Part shown: one piece after another, positions 3,165-37,713 of the stretch
How the letters are laid out: each line of letters opens with the position of its first letter
Position numbering within the stretch: position 1 is the stretch's first letter
Assembly (NCBI GenBank): GCA_015206805.1
Contig: JADEZP010000010.1
Span: 1 to 37,713 of the forward strand
Direction of reading: 5' to 3'
DNA length: 37,713 nt
Source: Quinella sp. 1Q7
GTDB lineage: Bacteria; Bacillota; Negativicutes; Selenomonadales; Selenomonadaceae
Notes under the pieces: generated by a model
What the model was told of the DNA's origin: nothing
Database searches by the model: none
Seen by the model: only the letters and a program-made list of their open reading frames with translations
Position numbers and translations under genes: made by a program

Positions 3165-3526
3165 CGTTGCGCATTACGTCTTACGCATTAAAAGAGCGTC
3201 GCCTATTCGCCGACAGCCCGAAGGCCGCCGACTCAACGAATCAGTCATCAAACAAGTTTTTGCCGTGACTTGTGGAGGCGTGTTGAAGTTTTGCGAAATT
3301 GTGCATTGTTGAGCTGAGCTTTGTCGTTTGGGTGAATCGGCGTTTTATCGGGATGAAGTTTAAAGTCGAATCTAACGGGCGCGTTCGTCCGACTGCTCAT
3401 GAAATGCTCTCTTTGACCCGAAAGCGCAGGTACTTTCTTTAGCCTGAAAGCGGGCGTGCAGCCTCTCAGTTCATCTGCACCTGAACCGACTTCGCTCAAT
3501 CAATGCGCAAGACGTAATGCGCAACG
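3165..3526. repeat. 362-bp segment bounded by a near-perfect 25-bp inverted repeat
   Basis: 3165-3189 and 3502-3526 are reverse complements at 24 of 25 positions; the key core is GCGCATTACGTCTT and its complement. The segment fills the gap between cydA and the next gene. It holds local hairpins (for example GTGCAG...CTGCAC around 3457-3480) and an open frame at 3248-3499 on the minus strand that lacks an RBS and starts only with TTG, so I do not call it a gene. Possible readings are a small mobile element (MITE-like) or a structured leader. No transposase is present. Confidence 0.6.
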
Positions 3527-7394: not shown

Positions 7395-7429
7395 GAATCC
7401 GGCTCCTTAAAAATTATGAAGTTAGCAAT

Positions 7430-7511
7430 GCGCAGCGTTGCGTTTCGACGCGGTGACCAACTCAGAATCATGAACGGCACGGCGCGACTACAGGATGCAA
7501 CGTCACGTTGC
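7430..7511 (+). repeat. Repeat element fragment E (right end), in the leader of the acyltransferase operon
   Basis: Ends in the palindrome GCAACGTCACGTTGC at 7497-7511, preceded by GGCGCGACTACAGGAT, which matches the right end of the full element at 28947-29145 (GGCGCGTCAACAGGAT). The left hairpin is absent, so this is a partial copy; the left limit is approximate. Confidence 0.7.
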
Positions 7512-9958: not shown

Positions 9959-10147
9959 CGCGTAATTTGGACCGCGCATGGACGCGCGGTCCCATCGCCG
10001 CGCTGAAACAGGATGTTTCAATGCGGCGAACGTGCGGCTTCGGGTCGGCTCAACGTTGCGGCAATTACTACCAACGCTCCGCGCGTAGCGGGGTCTTTTC
10101 TCTTTGCTACTTTCTCTTTGGACAAGCAAAGAGAAAGTAGATCCTAA
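9959..10147 (+). repeat. Hairpin-rich repeat after rsmB (copy 1; copy 2 follows prmC)
   Basis: Starts CGCGTAATTTG, then a perfect hairpin at 9969-9992 (GGACCGCGC, loop ATGGAC, GCGCGGTCC), and ends with a 14-bp perfect hairpin at 10107-10140 (CTACTTTCTCTTTG, loop, complement) followed by GTAGATCCTAA. The same start, the same ATGGAC loop and the same AAAGTAGATTCTAA end recur at 37389-37472, with a shorter centre. No T-run follows, so these are probably repeats rather than simple terminators. Confidence 0.7.
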
Positions 10148-10152
10148 AACTT

Positions 10153-10483
10153 AAATTCAGTTGAACACTTGGAACGGCGCGACGTCCTGTTGCCGCAACG
10201 AAAACCGCCGCCGCCGGCTTTTGAACACGCAAAAAAAATCTTACAAACTCAAATTCAGCTGAACGATTTGATATGGCGCGACGTCCTGTTGCCGCAACGA
10301 AAACCACCGCCGCCGGCTTTTGAACACGCAAAGAAAATCTTACAAACTCAAATTCAGCTGAACACTTGGAACGGCGCGACGTCCTGTTGCCGCAACGAAA
10401 ACCGCCGCCGCCGGCTTTTGAACACGCAAAGAAAATCCTACAAACTCAAATTCAGCTGAACGATTTGATACGGCGCGCCGCAG
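10153..10483. repeat. Tandem repeat, three 98-99-bp units plus a partial fourth, upstream of the ftsZ paralogue
   Basis: Units begin AAATTCAG at 10153, 10251, 10350 and 10448 and are nearly identical. Units 1 and 3 carry GAACACTTGGAACGG while units 2 and 4 carry GAACGATTTGATAYGG, so the array looks like a duplicated dimer. Each unit holds the small palindrome GTTGCCGCAAC. Open frames cross the array on both strands, but with only synonymous-looking repeats and no RBS I do not call a gene. The 618 bases between rsmB and the ftsZ paralogue are filled by this array and the hairpin repeat before it. Confidence 0.9.
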
Positions 10484-11742: not shown

Positions 11743-11891
11743 GACGACAATTTTCAGCGGGTCGCTTTAAAAGCGACGGAACAGCGGGTGTTCTATCCGA
11801 CGTTTCGACGACCGCAATTTGTTGCCGCGATTAAACGTTGTGCAAAATTTTTACGGGAGTCAACAATCTTATGGACGACAATTTTCAGCGG
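11743..11891 (+). repeat. Repeat element G (11761-11873) flanked by an 18-bp direct repeat
   Basis: The 18-mer GACGACAATTTTCAGCGG occurs at 11743-11760 and again at 11874-11891. Between them lies a 113-bp insert that begins exactly with the palindrome GTCGCTTTAAAAGCGAC, the left end of the element family, followed by GGAACAG. The ftsZ stop overlaps ATGATTGACGAC, so tcdA probably once began there in an ATGA overlap. The insert pushed it out of frame and the downstream copy of the duplicated sequence now provides the tcdA start. Confidence 0.8.
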
Positions 11892-13140: not shown

Positions 13141-13338
13141 TTATACGTTGAAGCGGAAGTAAGTGACGTCGCCGTCCTGCATGATGTAATCCTTGCCCTC
13201 AAGTCGCACAAGACCTTTGTCGCGGGCGGCGGCGATTGAGCCGAGCCGAATCAAATCGTCGTAGTTGACAATTTCCGCGCGAATGAAGCCGCGTTCAATG
13301 TCGCTGTGAATTTTACCTGCCGCCTTGAGTGCAGGTGT
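13141..13338 (-). pseudogene. Duplicated 3' end of ychF (about 66 codons)
   Basis: This segment repeats 13351-13548 at an offset of 210 bases, including the stop codon. It encodes the last part of the YchF TGS domain ([20 protein letters not shown] onward) but has no start. The copies differ at several mostly silent sites (for example ATGATG/ATTATG, ATCCTT/ATCTTT), so the duplication is not recent or is not an assembly error of identical reads. It lies directly after ychF and could not be translated unless read through. Confidence 0.85.
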
Positions 13339-13350
13339 GCGACAAATTGT

Positions 13351-14448
13351 TTACACGTTGAAGCGGAAGTAAGTGACGTCGCCGTCCTGCATTATGTAAT
13401 CTTTGCCCTCAAGGCGCACAAGTCCTTTGTCGCGGGCGGCGGCGATTGAGCCGAGCCGAATCAAATCGTCGTAGTTGACAATTTCCGCGCGAATGAAGCC
13501 GCGTTCAATGTCGCTGTGAATTTTGCCCGCCGCCTTGACTGCGGGCGTACCCTTTGCAATCGTCCACGCGCGGCACTCGTCGGGACCCGCCGTCAGGAAC
13601 GTCATCAAGCCGAGCAGGTCGAACGCCGCGTGAATCAATCTGTCAAGCCCCGAAGCCGAAAGTCCCAAATCCGCCAAAAATTCTTGCGCCTCGTCCGCGT
13701 CAAGTTCGGCAATTTCTTCCTCGACCTTCGCGCAAATGACGACGACTTGAGCACCTTCCGACGCCGCGAGTTCACGAACTTTTTTGACGTGGGAATTTTC
13801 AGCGGCAAGCTCCGATTCGGCGACGTTGGCGACGTAAAGCGTCGGCTTGAGCGTCAACAGATTCGCGTCGCGTATCGCCGCAAGTTCGTCGTCCGTCAAG
13901 TTCAGTCCTCGCGCAGGTTTTGCGGCGTCGAGAGAATTTTTGACGCGCTCCAAAATTTCCGACTCAAACCGCGCCTCCTTGCTACCCGACTTCAAAAGTT
14001 TTGCGACCTTCGCAAGCCGCTTGTCGACGACCTCCAAATCCGCAAGGCAAAGTTCCGTTTGTATGGTGTCGATGTCGCGCAGTGGGTCAATCGTGTCGGC
14101 GACGTGCGTAATGTTCCCGTCCTCGAAACAGCGCACGACGTGGGCAATGGCGTCGACTTGGCGGATGTGTTCCAAAAATTTGTTGCCGAGACCTTCGCCC
14201 TTCGACGCGCCTTTGACAAGCCCCGCAATGTCCACGAAACGAACACTTGCGGGCGTCGTCTTCTTGGAGTTGTAAAGTTTCGTCAGCACGTCAAGCCGAC
14301 CGTCAGGCACCGCCACGACTCCGACATTCGGCTCAATGGTGCAGAACGGATAATTCGCCGCCTCCGCGCCCGCACGAGTTATCGCATTAAAAAGCGTCGA
14401 CTTGCCGACATTGGGCAAACCGACGATACCGACTTCAAGGTTGCTCAT
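13351..14448 (-). CDS. ychF: Ribosome-binding ATPase YchF (Obg family)
   Basis: 365 residues, the usual length. G1 GLPNVGKSTLFNAIT at residues 10-24, G3 DIAGLVKGASKGEGLGN, and the family-specific G4 variant NVAES (NxxE in place of NKxD), which gives ATP rather than GTP preference. A coiled-coil insertion lies around residues 120-200 and a C-terminal TGS domain ends [20 protein letters not shown]...[18 protein letters not shown]. YchF binds the ribosome and takes part in stress responses and start-site choice. The ATG follows GGAGG. The 3' end is duplicated just downstream. Confidence 0.96.
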   Translation of the reverse strand: MSNLEVGIVGLPNVGKSTLFNAITRAGAEAANYPFCTIEPNVGVVAVPDGRLDVLTKLYNSKKTTPASVRFVDIAGLVKGASKGEGLGNKFLEHIRQVDAIAHVVRCFEDGNITHVADTIDPLRDIDTIQTELCLADLEVVDKRLAKVAKLLKSGSKEARFESEILERVKNSLDAAKPARGLNLTDDELAAIRDANLLTLKPTLYVANVAESELAAENSHVKKVRELAASEGAQVVVICAKVEEEIAELDADEAQEFLADLGLSASGLDRLIHAAFDLLGLMTFLTAGPDECRAWTIAKGTPAVKAAGKIHSDIERGFIRAEIVNYDDLIRLGSIAAARDKGLVRLEGKDYIMQDGDVTYFRFNV

Positions 14449-15073: not shown

Positions 15074-15084
15074 CAAAAAATTTC

Positions 15085-15220
15085 CCCGCCGCTCGATTGA
15101 GTGACGGGGGCAACGTGACGTTGCATCCAATTGTCACGTCCAATCAATGACAAGCGTAAGCAATCGCCGCGCATTTAACGTTGTGCAAAAAATATCCCGC
15201 CGCTCGATTGAGTGACGGGG
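15085..15220 (-). repeat. Repeat element H (15110-15195) inside a duplicated terminator hairpin
   Basis: A 25-bp hairpin sequence (CCCGCCGCTCGATTGAGTGA plus CGGGG) is present at 15085-15109 and again at 15196-15220. Between them is an 86-bp insert that starts with GCAACGTGACGTTGC, the element's right end in reverse orientation, and continues with sequence matching the right half of the full element at 28947 (GCGCGGCGATTGCTT on the minus strand). The left-end hairpin is missing. Confidence 0.78.
15187..15220 (-). terminator. Terminator of the envelope operon (after rnhB)
   Basis: Minus strand CCCCGTCACTC, loop AATC, GAGCGGCGGG, followed by ATATTTTTT. It begins six bases beyond the rnhB stop. 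The copy at 15085-15109 would serve the decayed glycosyltransferase on the plus strand. Confidence 0.78.
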
Positions 15221-28495: not shown

Positions 28496-28571
28496 ATCGA
28501 CTTCAAGCGCGGCGACAGACTTGCGGTCGTTAGTGACTTTGCCGCGTTAATTGGATGCAACGTCACGTTGC
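28496..28571 (+). repeat. Repeat element fragment D before the grpE-like fragment
   Basis: Right part of the element family: GCGGCGACAGACTTGCGG then GTTAATTGGATGCAACGTCACGTTGC, ending with the palindrome at 28557-28571. It matches element C (29727-29925) over its right third. The left hairpin is absent. Its ATG (28555) opens the frame of the next fragment, but without an RBS. Confidence 0.72.
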
Positions 28572-28902: not shown

Positions 28903-28946
28903 TATGAAATTTTTTGTGGGCATTGACTTGGGCACGACCAACAGCG

Positions 28947-29145
28947 GCCGCTTTGAAAGCGGCGGAACAGTTGACGCGTTGCAACGTCCGAAATTTCAGC
29001 ACGCCGCCCGCGCCGCAACTTCACGATAAAAAATTTTTCAGCCGCTTGACAAACATCGGGCAATTTTTTTTGCGCCGATAAGCGCGGCGATTGCTTGCGG
29101 TTGTCAGACGCTTTGGCGCGTCAACAGGATGCCTCGTCACGTTGC
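28947..29145 (+). repeat. Repeat element A, full length (199 bp)
   Basis: Left end GCCGCTTTGAAAGCGGC (perfect 17-bp palindrome, 28947-28963) then GGAACAGTTG; right end GCCTCGTCACGTTGC (29131-29145). Internal blocks shared with element C include GCCCGCGCCGCAAC, AAAAAATTTTT and GACAAACRTCGGGC. Inserted after codon 14 of the Hsp70 gene, with loss of a large part of the gene. Confidence 0.85.
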
Positions 29146-29508
29146 TCGACAAGATACTGCTGAATGAATTCGTGGTGCCGTGGCTTGAAGAAAATTATTC
29201 GATGCCCGACGATAGCGGACGACGGCGATATTGTTACGGTCGACGCGGACGGCGAGGAAATTTATCTTGACATTGCGATTGACGGCGAAAGTTTTTCTGC
29301 GGCGATTGACGGGCTCATAACCAAGGCGATTGAAACTGCGCGGGCGACGCTTGCAAAGGCGGGCTTGACGGCGGGCGACATCAGCAAAATAATTTTTATC
29401 GGCAGACCCGTCAACTACAAACGGATTCGCGAACGCGTCGTTGCCGAGTTGAGCATTCCCGGCGATATTGAAGTCAACCCGATGACGGCTGTATCGGAGG
29501 GTGCGGCG

Positions 29509-29585
29509 GTCGCTTTAAAAGCGACGGAACAGCTGTCGCGTTGCAATTGCCGAAAAATTTCAGCCCACCAACCGCGCCGCAACAA
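29509..29585 (+). repeat. Repeat element fragment B (left end, about 75 bp)
   Basis: Left palindrome GTCGCTTTAAAAGCGAC (29509-29525) then GGAACAG and sequence matching element A up to CGCGCCGCAAC, where Hsp70 coding sequence resumes. The right half is missing. The Hsp70 frame changes across it. Confidence 0.78.
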
Positions 29586-29726
29586 AAGTACGTATTGCCG
29601 TCGTCTTGGGGCAGGAGCGCGACGGTTACACGTTTGAAATTTCGTCGGCTGACAGCGGCCGGAATTCGGGTATCATTGCGCTGAAAAATAAATTGCTCGT
29701 GACGGTGCCGCTTCACAATTGCGGGA

Positions 29727-29925
29727 GCCGCTTTAAAAGCGGCGGAACAGTTGGCGCGTCAAACGTTGCTAAAATTTTAACTTACTGCCCGCGCCGCAAC
29801 GTCCGAAAAAATTTTTGGTTGCTCGACAAACGTCGGGCGATTTTTGTTTGCGATAATCAAACACGGCGACTGACTGCGGCGGTCAAAATGTCGGACGCGA
29901 CCATTGGATGCAACGTCCACGTTGC
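29727..29925 (+). repeat. Repeat element C, full length (199 bp)
   Basis: Left palindrome GCCGCTTTAAAAGCGGC (29727-29743) then GGAACAGTTG; right end ATTGGATGCAACGTCCACGT with GCAACGTCCACGTTGC at 29910-29925. Same length as element A. An open frame passes through it and rejoins the Hsp70 frame. Confidence 0.85.
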
Positions 29926-30655
29926 CGCGCTGAAAATTTCCGGCACGGATTTTGAATTCGGCACGATTGTCGAGGGCGCGGAAATTATCTGCAACTATAC
30001 AATCGACGACGCGGGCTCAATCAAGCTTGAGGTCGACATTCCCGCCGTCGGAGAAGAATTCTACAAAAATTTTTATTCGCGCGAGGATGCGCAGATTGAC
30101 TTCAACCGCGACGTGTCCAAGCTCAATCGCGACGGCAAGGCGTTGATTGACAGCGTGCGCGAGTTGGGCAGGACGATTGACGATGACGGCGACGATTACG
30201 AAAAACTTCAGCGTGCGGGCGAGGTTGCGAGCACGGCGATTAGTGCCGACCGCTCAAGCCACGACGCCGAGGAGCTCAAGCACATTGAGGAAGACATCAC
30301 CGAAGCTAAAAAAATTTTGGCGGACATTCGTCAGCGCAACCGCCCGAACATCCGCCGCGACGATTTGGACGACTTGAACGATTACTTCGAGTCTTACGCT
30401 AAAAATTTTGCCGAGCCGCAGGAAATTGCGCAGATTGAAAAACTTTTGGCGCGTGCCGAAACTTTGATTGAACGCGACGATTCCGCCTTCGAGGATACGG
30501 TTGATGAAATTCGCGGCTTGTGTTGGAAGGCGATTTTCTTCCGCGACGACGAATACGCCGTTTACATGTTCAACGACATGATTAAGCACCCCGAACACAG
30601 CGAAGACGCGCTTTTGACCGCAAATATCATCAAAGGTTGAGGCGGTGGGCACGCC

Positions 30656-32701: not shown

Positions 32702-32730
32702 TGAATCATCTCCCAAAAATTTTTTTCGCG

Positions 32731-32755
32731 GCAACGGAATGTAATGTCACGTTGC
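32731..32755 (+). repeat. Repeat right-end fragment I
   Basis: GGAATGTAATGTCACGTTGC at 32736-32755 matches the right end of the element family with two changes in the palindrome. The 300-base gap between rlmN and the chemotaxis receptor holds this fragment, a terminator and a 19-bp tandem repeat; no gene is seen. Confidence 0.5.
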
Positions 32756-37481: not shown

Positions 37482-37713
37482 TCACAAACGCTTAAGTAAA
37501 GTGTGAATATGAGAAATTTTAATCAAAGTCTCAGCGGAAGATATTGTTAGCTCATAATTTTTGCTAAGTCGGCGGGAGTGATTGAGCCAGGCAAAAGTCC
37601 GCTCCACTATCCAGCGTTTTGGTAAGACTTGCCAGCCGTGCCCCTTAAGCTTCTTGCTGATTTCTACTCGCAAGCCGAAATATTTGTACGACTCGTAAAC
37701 GAAAGAGCCGCGA
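37482..37713 (-). mobile_element. IS5-family transposase, C-terminal part (element runs off the right edge)
   Basis: Reading the minus strand from the right edge gives about 76 residues to the stop at 37482: [19 protein letters not shown], then [20 protein letters not shown] and [20 protein letters not shown]. The [17 protein letters not shown]-type motif is the C-terminal DDE Glu region of IS5-family (IS427-like) transposases. The element end lies between the stop and about 37473, near AACAGGTGTTCACAAACGC. The rest is outside the window, so intactness is unknown. Confidence 0.88.

Follow-up and report, generated by a model that had tools for sequence, protein, structure and literature searches.

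Small mobile repeats in Quinella with one exact hairpin end and one ragged end

Short repeats ending in palindromes are scattered over a 37,713-bp stretch (1–37713; hereafter the window) of the Quinella sp. 1Q7 draft genome (G000; 2.58 Mb, 169 contigs), which raises the question of what the unit of these repeats is and how it moves. A sequence-only reading of the window had proposed a mobile family of 199-bp elements with a hairpin at each end. The present analysis showed that the repeats are real and mobile and that their unit differs from this 199-bp, two-hairpin element.

Elements A (28947–29145) and C (29727–29925) are indeed 199 bp each and are 75% identical over the whole length. When C was used as the query, only A and C were matched over the full length in G000, and the 199-bp element was rejected as the unit; the 199-bp copies are compound, whereas the usual copies have a single hairpin end, and hairpins at both ends are a property of the compound copies only. 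The usual repeat unit measures approximately 40–125 bp and has one exact hairpin end, which is either H1 (GGATGCAACGTCACGTTGC) or H2 (a hairpin whose arms covary, followed by GGAACAG). Read in its own orientation from the DNA preceding the right ends, the H1 unit consists of RCGCGGC, a variable segment of approximately 28 bases, CGCG, and, further on, GGATGCAACGTCACGTTGC. The H2 end reads G(C/T)CGCTTTnAAAGCG(G/A)C-GGAACAG where H1 units have GCAACGTGACGTTGC-ATCC, and the left (H2) units carry the same core as the H1 units in reverse complement, with a different hairpin. A and C each comprise one H2 unit and one H1 unit placed back to back, and B and the copy at 11761 are single H2 units. The sequence-only reading had not remarked on this relation between left and right units, nor on the flanking duplications and the gene losses described below.

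The pairing of the H2 arms was borne out by the sequences. Four copies of the 17-bp palindrome at the left end are present in the window (11761, 28947, 29509, and 29727; 0.14 expected), and over 55 H2 ends from the fetched loci the arms of this palindrome change jointly at pairs 1-17 (G-C 33, C-G 18, other 4) and 2-16 (C-G 45, T-A 8, T-G 2), as the sequence-only reading had noticed. Because the search pattern left the two arms free to vary independently, this pairing was not imposed by the search. The variation of H1 was too low to show covariation. In an alignment of 81 of the 105 non-redundant H1 copies, conservation was confined to the RCGCGGC, CGCG, and H1 boxes, and RNAalifold returned a CGCG/CGCG stem and the H1 hairpin, with a both-sides change at one pair in a single sequence; covariation support is therefore limited to the H2 arms. 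No conserved peptide was found in the copies, whose reading frames differ by eye, and no Rfam match was obtained at gathering thresholds in the window or in six loci.

Two further statements on the ends needed correction. The right end had been given as fixed, GCAACGTSACGTTGC, and this sequence is present exactly at 7497, 15110, and 28557 and with two mismatches at 29131 (in A) and 32741 (0.24 expected), but C has GCAACGTCCACGTTGC as its right end, which is one base longer and is missed by a GCAACGTSACGTTGC search. The left ends are not all preceded by GCG, since GGGA precedes C and CGG precedes the 11761 copy. In the fetched loci, 19 outward-facing hairpin pairs no more than 320 bp apart were found, many of them approximately 95 bp long, and none of the 19 had a flanking direct repeat. 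As a separate observation, the compound pairs of the copy-rich genome G010 sit within larger mosaics of palindromic modules, and intergenic mosaics of this kind surround 95-bp compound units in G010 and at two G000 loci (L056, L040, L107, L149, L200, L234, and others).

Outside A, B, and C, five copies were located in the window. A single H2-type unit (11761..11852, minus strand) lies at a gene border and is flanked on each side by a copy of approximately 39 bp, one ending at 11760 and the other starting at 11853. An H1-type unit at 15110..15182 (minus strand) has a duplicated flank of approximately 36–40 bp, which was also recorded as repeat D16 (15076–15109 and 15187–15220). The H1-type unit at 7423..7511 (plus strand) carries an extra hairpin preceding the core and, by eye, an 8-base flank repeat, CATGAAAA; another, 3′ of the preceding gene at 28503..28571 (plus strand), had no detected flanking duplication. 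The last copy is a short degenerate H1 end at 32726..32755 (plus strand).

A, B, and C lie in a broken Hsp70-like gene (28904..30640, plus strand), which was compared with the intact orthologue at L064. The left half of A is an H2-type unit (28947..29021, minus strand; inner limit approximate) with its hairpin at 28947–28963 and core GCCCGCGCCG at 29006, and the right half is an H1-type unit (29078..29145, plus strand) with the core from 29082 and the hairpin GCCTCGTCACGTTGC, with two mismatches, at 29131–29145. B is a single H2-type unit (29509..29584, minus strand; right limit approximate). In C, the H2-type left half (29727..29801, minus strand; inner limit approximate) has core GCCCGCGCCG at 29787, and the H1-type right half (29858..29925, plus strand) has the core from 29861 and the hairpin that is one base longer. 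Intact orthologues are found at L063, L064, and L065 (826–828 codons), and the four relatives of the gene found in named records come from metagenome genomes of Selenomonadaceae or Selenomonadales. Relative to L064, A replaces codons 15–206, B approximately 358–398, and C 443–553; codons 229–261 are also missing, with no element there. Since segments of L064 are missing where A, B, and C stand, insertion or later decay was accompanied by target loss at these sites.

The distribution of the H1 ends confirmed a dispersed, structured family confined to the genus among the genomes searched. With up to two mismatches allowed, GGATGCAACGTNACGTTGC gave 55 matches in G000 (38 exact), six of which were, by eye, the opposite strand of a hairpin already listed; the reversed control gave 0. 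Exact H1 ends were found in 38 of 66 genus genomes (0–107 matches per genome; G010 107, G022 51, G064 43, G014 19) and in 0 of the 314 other genomes of the class, which represent 101 other genera (380 genomes searched in all). When one mismatch was allowed, 14 of 41 relatives matched, every one within the genus. Copies are present elsewhere in the genome and in relatives, where their absence would have spoken against a mobile family. In the papers searched, which were mostly those outside subscription, no report of these ends or of such a family in this lineage was found, in agreement with the sequence-only reading, and a term search of PMC3733652 returned no match.

To describe the flanks, we use the arrangement U-X-E-X-V, where E is the element, X is the copied target, and U and V are the outer flanks. 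Each fetched locus was chosen for holding an end, and most come from G000 and G010; the set is therefore not random. In 100 of 227 distinct ends (82/172 for H1 and 18/55 for H2), the DNA adjoining the hairpin end was a direct copy of the DNA beyond the other end, compared with 44/2000 random positions in the same loci and 8/2000 positions lying 700 bp or more away from every hairpin; in the remaining 127, no duplication was found. Lengths were determined for 92 of the 100 duplication-positive copies, leaving out eight with another hairpin inside. X was 13–158 bp long (median 42), and its two copies were 94% identical. The distance from the hairpin to X was 50–126 bp in 76 of the 92 copies; 12 values of 40–41 bp lie at the search floor, and four exceeded 126 bp. 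Where no long repeat was present, exact 8-mers flanked 12 of 127 ends versus 70 of 3000 controls, which is a weak excess.

The two ends of the element were unlike each other. The hairpin end is exact and directly abuts the target, and the opposite end is ragged. The target base after H1 was C in 73% and G in 3% of 172 copies, and after H2 it was C or T in 89% of 55 copies, whereas no comparable base preference was found at the ragged end. By eye, X-E arrays of up to four elements were also seen: the elements of two arrays measure just 39 and 46 bp, one array has four elements at 64-bp spacing, one has two unlike elements alternating with a common X, and in another a differing element shares X.

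The copies of X differ from one another in a non-uniform manner. Mismatches rise from approximately 2% beside the hairpin to approximately 10% at the other side, and 45 of 62 pairs were skewed in this direction (p = 5e-4); six copies with a 1–2-base gap at the hairpin were left out, an omission that biases the test toward matches near the hairpin, and of the 86 used, pairs with fewer than 20 columns or without a mismatch were removed. At codon positions 1, 2, and 3, the mismatches numbered 36, 38, and 100, respectively (third position, 100/174). Upstream of genes, the stretch between the ragged end and X often appears leader-like by eye, and at one site in G005, the stretch ahead of the second X contains a leader and start codons resembling those of orthologues. 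Either the inserts bring leaders with them or gain them, or some sites came from recombination with another allele.

Filled and empty sites were compared, as had been suggested as a check. The 11761 copy is flanked by one gene and by the start of another, which is ThiF/HesA-like (named by eye). At this border, the element was absent and the gene start single in 9 of 14 orthologous loci (G015, G016, G021, G057, G062, G065, G069, G070, and G077). G005 and G010 each have an element of their own with its own duplication there, and the remaining three loci either differed in gene order or could not be resolved. Several of the nine empty loci have the genes overlapping in ATGA; after insertion at such an overlap, the first gene's stop is carried by one X and the second gene's start by the other. 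The duplicated border thus shows how both overlapping genes can be spared by an insertion. Furthermore, X was single in a relative at L048 (116 bp), L031 (15 bp), and L011, where only 71 bp of the second side could be aligned. At L043, a relative lacks the element, yet the filled site has no duplication.

The enzyme types searched do not explain the movement of the element. As had been remarked for the window, no enzyme was seen near the copies, and three loci examined for a cargo gene near or between the ends (L101, L040, and L056) hold ordinary genes. Y1_Tnp (PF01797) matched 7 of 60 genus genomes and gave no match in G000, G010 (107 exact H1), or G064 (43), all of them draft genomes. RVT_1 matched 19 of 60 genus genomes, with no match at E ≤ 10 in G064, G010, G078, or G081. 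DDE_Tnp_1 (PF01609) matched 8 of 14 genus genomes, including G000 and G010, and gave no match in G064 (43 H1 matches), G022 (51), or G014 (19). G064, which is 99% complete and has 43 exact H1 ends, had no RVT_1, Y1_Tnp, or DDE_Tnp_1 match, and duplication was present at only three of nine H1 ends in eight of its loci; the duplication lengths from this set, several of which lie on the 36-bp search floor, were left out of account. It is possible that the enzyme has been lost or is of an unlike type, and draft genomes may conceal enzymes. Several enzyme-related sequences were noted. Pieces of an RT-domain ORF in G000 (C136:33484–33678, L238) look, by eye, like a broken group II intron protein, and G022 has an intact-looking RT ORF. 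A 525-aa DDE transposase ORF lies on G000 contig C151 (L184), whose composition is unlike the rest by eye and which is possibly a contaminant. Weak DDE_Tnp_1 matches occur at 37521–37667 in the window and at other G000 contig ends, as if an insertion sequence had broken the assembly.

On this evidence, we give roughly even chances to the reading that the repeats are non-autonomous mobile elements inserting by a one-ended reaction that resembles target-primed retrotransposition, with an enzyme acting in trans. The one-ended behavior is held more confidently than the RNA step because no partner enzyme was found. A trans-acting enzyme would recognize the hairpin, as RNA or as a single strand, as the 3′ end of the element; this end would be joined to a nick at a preferred site at which the next base is C, and the other end would be completed at an unspecific second break some distance off. 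Depending on which side of the first break the second one falls, the target would be duplicated or deleted, and A, B, and C may represent the deletion outcome, although the target loss there could be later decay instead. In LINE/SINE target-primed reverse transcription, a 3′ stem-loop tail is used, and an exact hairpin end, a ragged end, a variable duplication (perhaps deletion), and a one-sided target preference together form the signature of target-primed insertion of SINEs with a stem-loop tail. By analogy, H1 and H2 may be two tails on interchangeable bodies. The exact 3′ end, variable 5′ end, and variable duplications of a SINE-like element were all found here; a partner reverse transcriptase was not, given the lack of RVT_1 matches at E ≤ 10 in the four copy-rich genomes named above. 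A full bacterial counterpart of LINE/SINE mobility, in which a 3′ hairpin tail would suffice for the enzyme, target-primed one-ended insertion would duplicate or delete the target, and the tails H1 and H2 would be exchanged on variable bodies, is a tentative proposal that we regard as doubtful. One-ended insertion is supported by the excess of duplications over both sets of random positions, by the base preference at the hairpin end alone, by the lengths of X and its distances from the hairpin, by the empty sites with a single X, by the core that H1 and H2 share, and by the range of copy number (0–107) within one genus. Against it stand the 127 of 227 ends without duplication, the L043 site, the missing RVT_1 matches, and the absence of flanking repeats from all 19 compound units; the non-uniform mismatches in X and the leader-like stretches past the ragged end are not predicted by simple insertion.

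Several other explanations were considered. MITEs have terminal inverted repeats and a short target duplication of fixed length. The possibility that the repeats derive, in the manner of MITEs, from a DDE insertion sequence whose target duplications are unusually long and variable seems to us unlikely: by eye, no terminal inverted repeats were seen and the ends differ, one being ragged, the target preference is one-sided, and the duplication, at 13–158 bp, is neither short nor fixed. The long variable duplication itself does agree with the IS1549 and IS1634 type, for which duplications of 8–514 bp give a precedent (PMC2266710, available part), and DDE_Tnp_1 is present in G000 and G010 among the eight matching genomes, but it was not matched in the copy-rich G064, G022, and G014, and the large transposase ORF of G000 is the one on the contig of unlike composition. 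Somewhat less probable still is recombination with a diverged allele, in which a donor fragment would be joined illegitimately at a C site (the hairpin end) and homologously in the neighboring gene, so that the gene border becomes duplicated. The polarity of the mismatches in X, their concentration at third codon positions, and the orthologue-like leader and start codons in G005, with similar leaders elsewhere by eye, favor this explanation. However, the polarity test omitted the hairpin-gap copies and so favored matches there, and approximately half of the changes would already be expected at third positions if one idle copy simply drifted after duplication. Moreover, recombination fails to explain the spread to many loci because the donor must already hold the element at the same locus.

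Two further explanations have very little probability in our view. IS200/IS605 elements insert without target duplication. Mobilization by a Y1 (HUH) enzyme, as palindromic elements of the IS200/IS605, PATE, or REP type, had been proposed by the sequence-only reading; the hairpin ends, the small size, the absence of coding capacity, and the Y1_Tnp matches in seven genus genomes agree with it, but the duplications at 100 of 227 ends are long, variable, and single in empty sites, and the search for a Y1 transposase gave no match in G000, G010, or G064. Given the long duplications and the lack of a Y1 match in G000, the IS200/IS605 reading is unsupported. An equally improbable account invokes no transposition at all, only tandem duplication or replication slippage at palindromes. 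The X-E arrays, including the four elements at 64-bp spacing, would suit it, but it is largely refuted by the empty sites with a single X and no element, and X-E-X without an intervening hairpin was present in 92 copies.

The nearest published behaviors found were those of YPAL/RU-2 of Yersinia and of IS1549/IS1634, as described in the available parts of PMC2229807 and PMC2266710, respectively. Like the present family, YPAL/RU-2 (168 bp) is a palindromic repeat of small size and high copy number that lacks the usual MITE ends, has variable target duplications, and is known from both empty and filled sites; compared by description, its duplications are 3–26 bp and its inverted repeats internal, whereas those found here are 13–158 bp with one terminal hairpin (PMC2229807, same part). 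The direct repeats of IS1549/IS1634 (8–514 bp) are long and variable, as in Quinella, and a 2008 review of that family stated that there was no mechanistic model to account for them (PMC2266710). IS1549 and IS1634 are autonomous DDE elements, whereas the present units have no gene and one ragged end, and some copy-rich genomes lack a DDE_Tnp_1 match. SINEs with a LINE-type 3′ stem-loop tail resemble the family in having a fixed hairpin 3′ end, a variable 5′ end, shared tails, and variable duplications or deletions, but they are eukaryotic and require reverse transcriptase, which was not found in several copy-rich Quinella genomes. The Y1-associated REP, BIME, and REPIN sequences likewise form high-copy palindromic modules in mosaics, unlike the present family in that its target duplications are long and Y1_Tnp had no match in G000. 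The family is valuable as a naturally occurring, high-copy collection for which empty sites exist and whose members are exact, with a target preference, at one end and ragged at the other; because these properties fall on separate ends, one-ended insertion becomes testable in bacteria.

Other repeated features were observed in the window. A 198-nt stretch occurs twice at 13141–13548 (95% identical, spacing 210), and a 137-nt stretch occurs three times at 10147–10480 with 98–99 nt spacing. Inverted arms of 34 nt at 3165–3526 (88% complementary, 294 nt apart) are ATGCGCAAGACGTAATGCGCAACG-like and unrelated to H1 or H2. The word AAAATTTT occurs 56 times in the window, compared with 0.25 in base-shuffled sequence, and TTTTAAAA occurs 0 times; AAAATTTT is strongly directional, within genes as well, and is perhaps an uptake or chromosome-organizing word.
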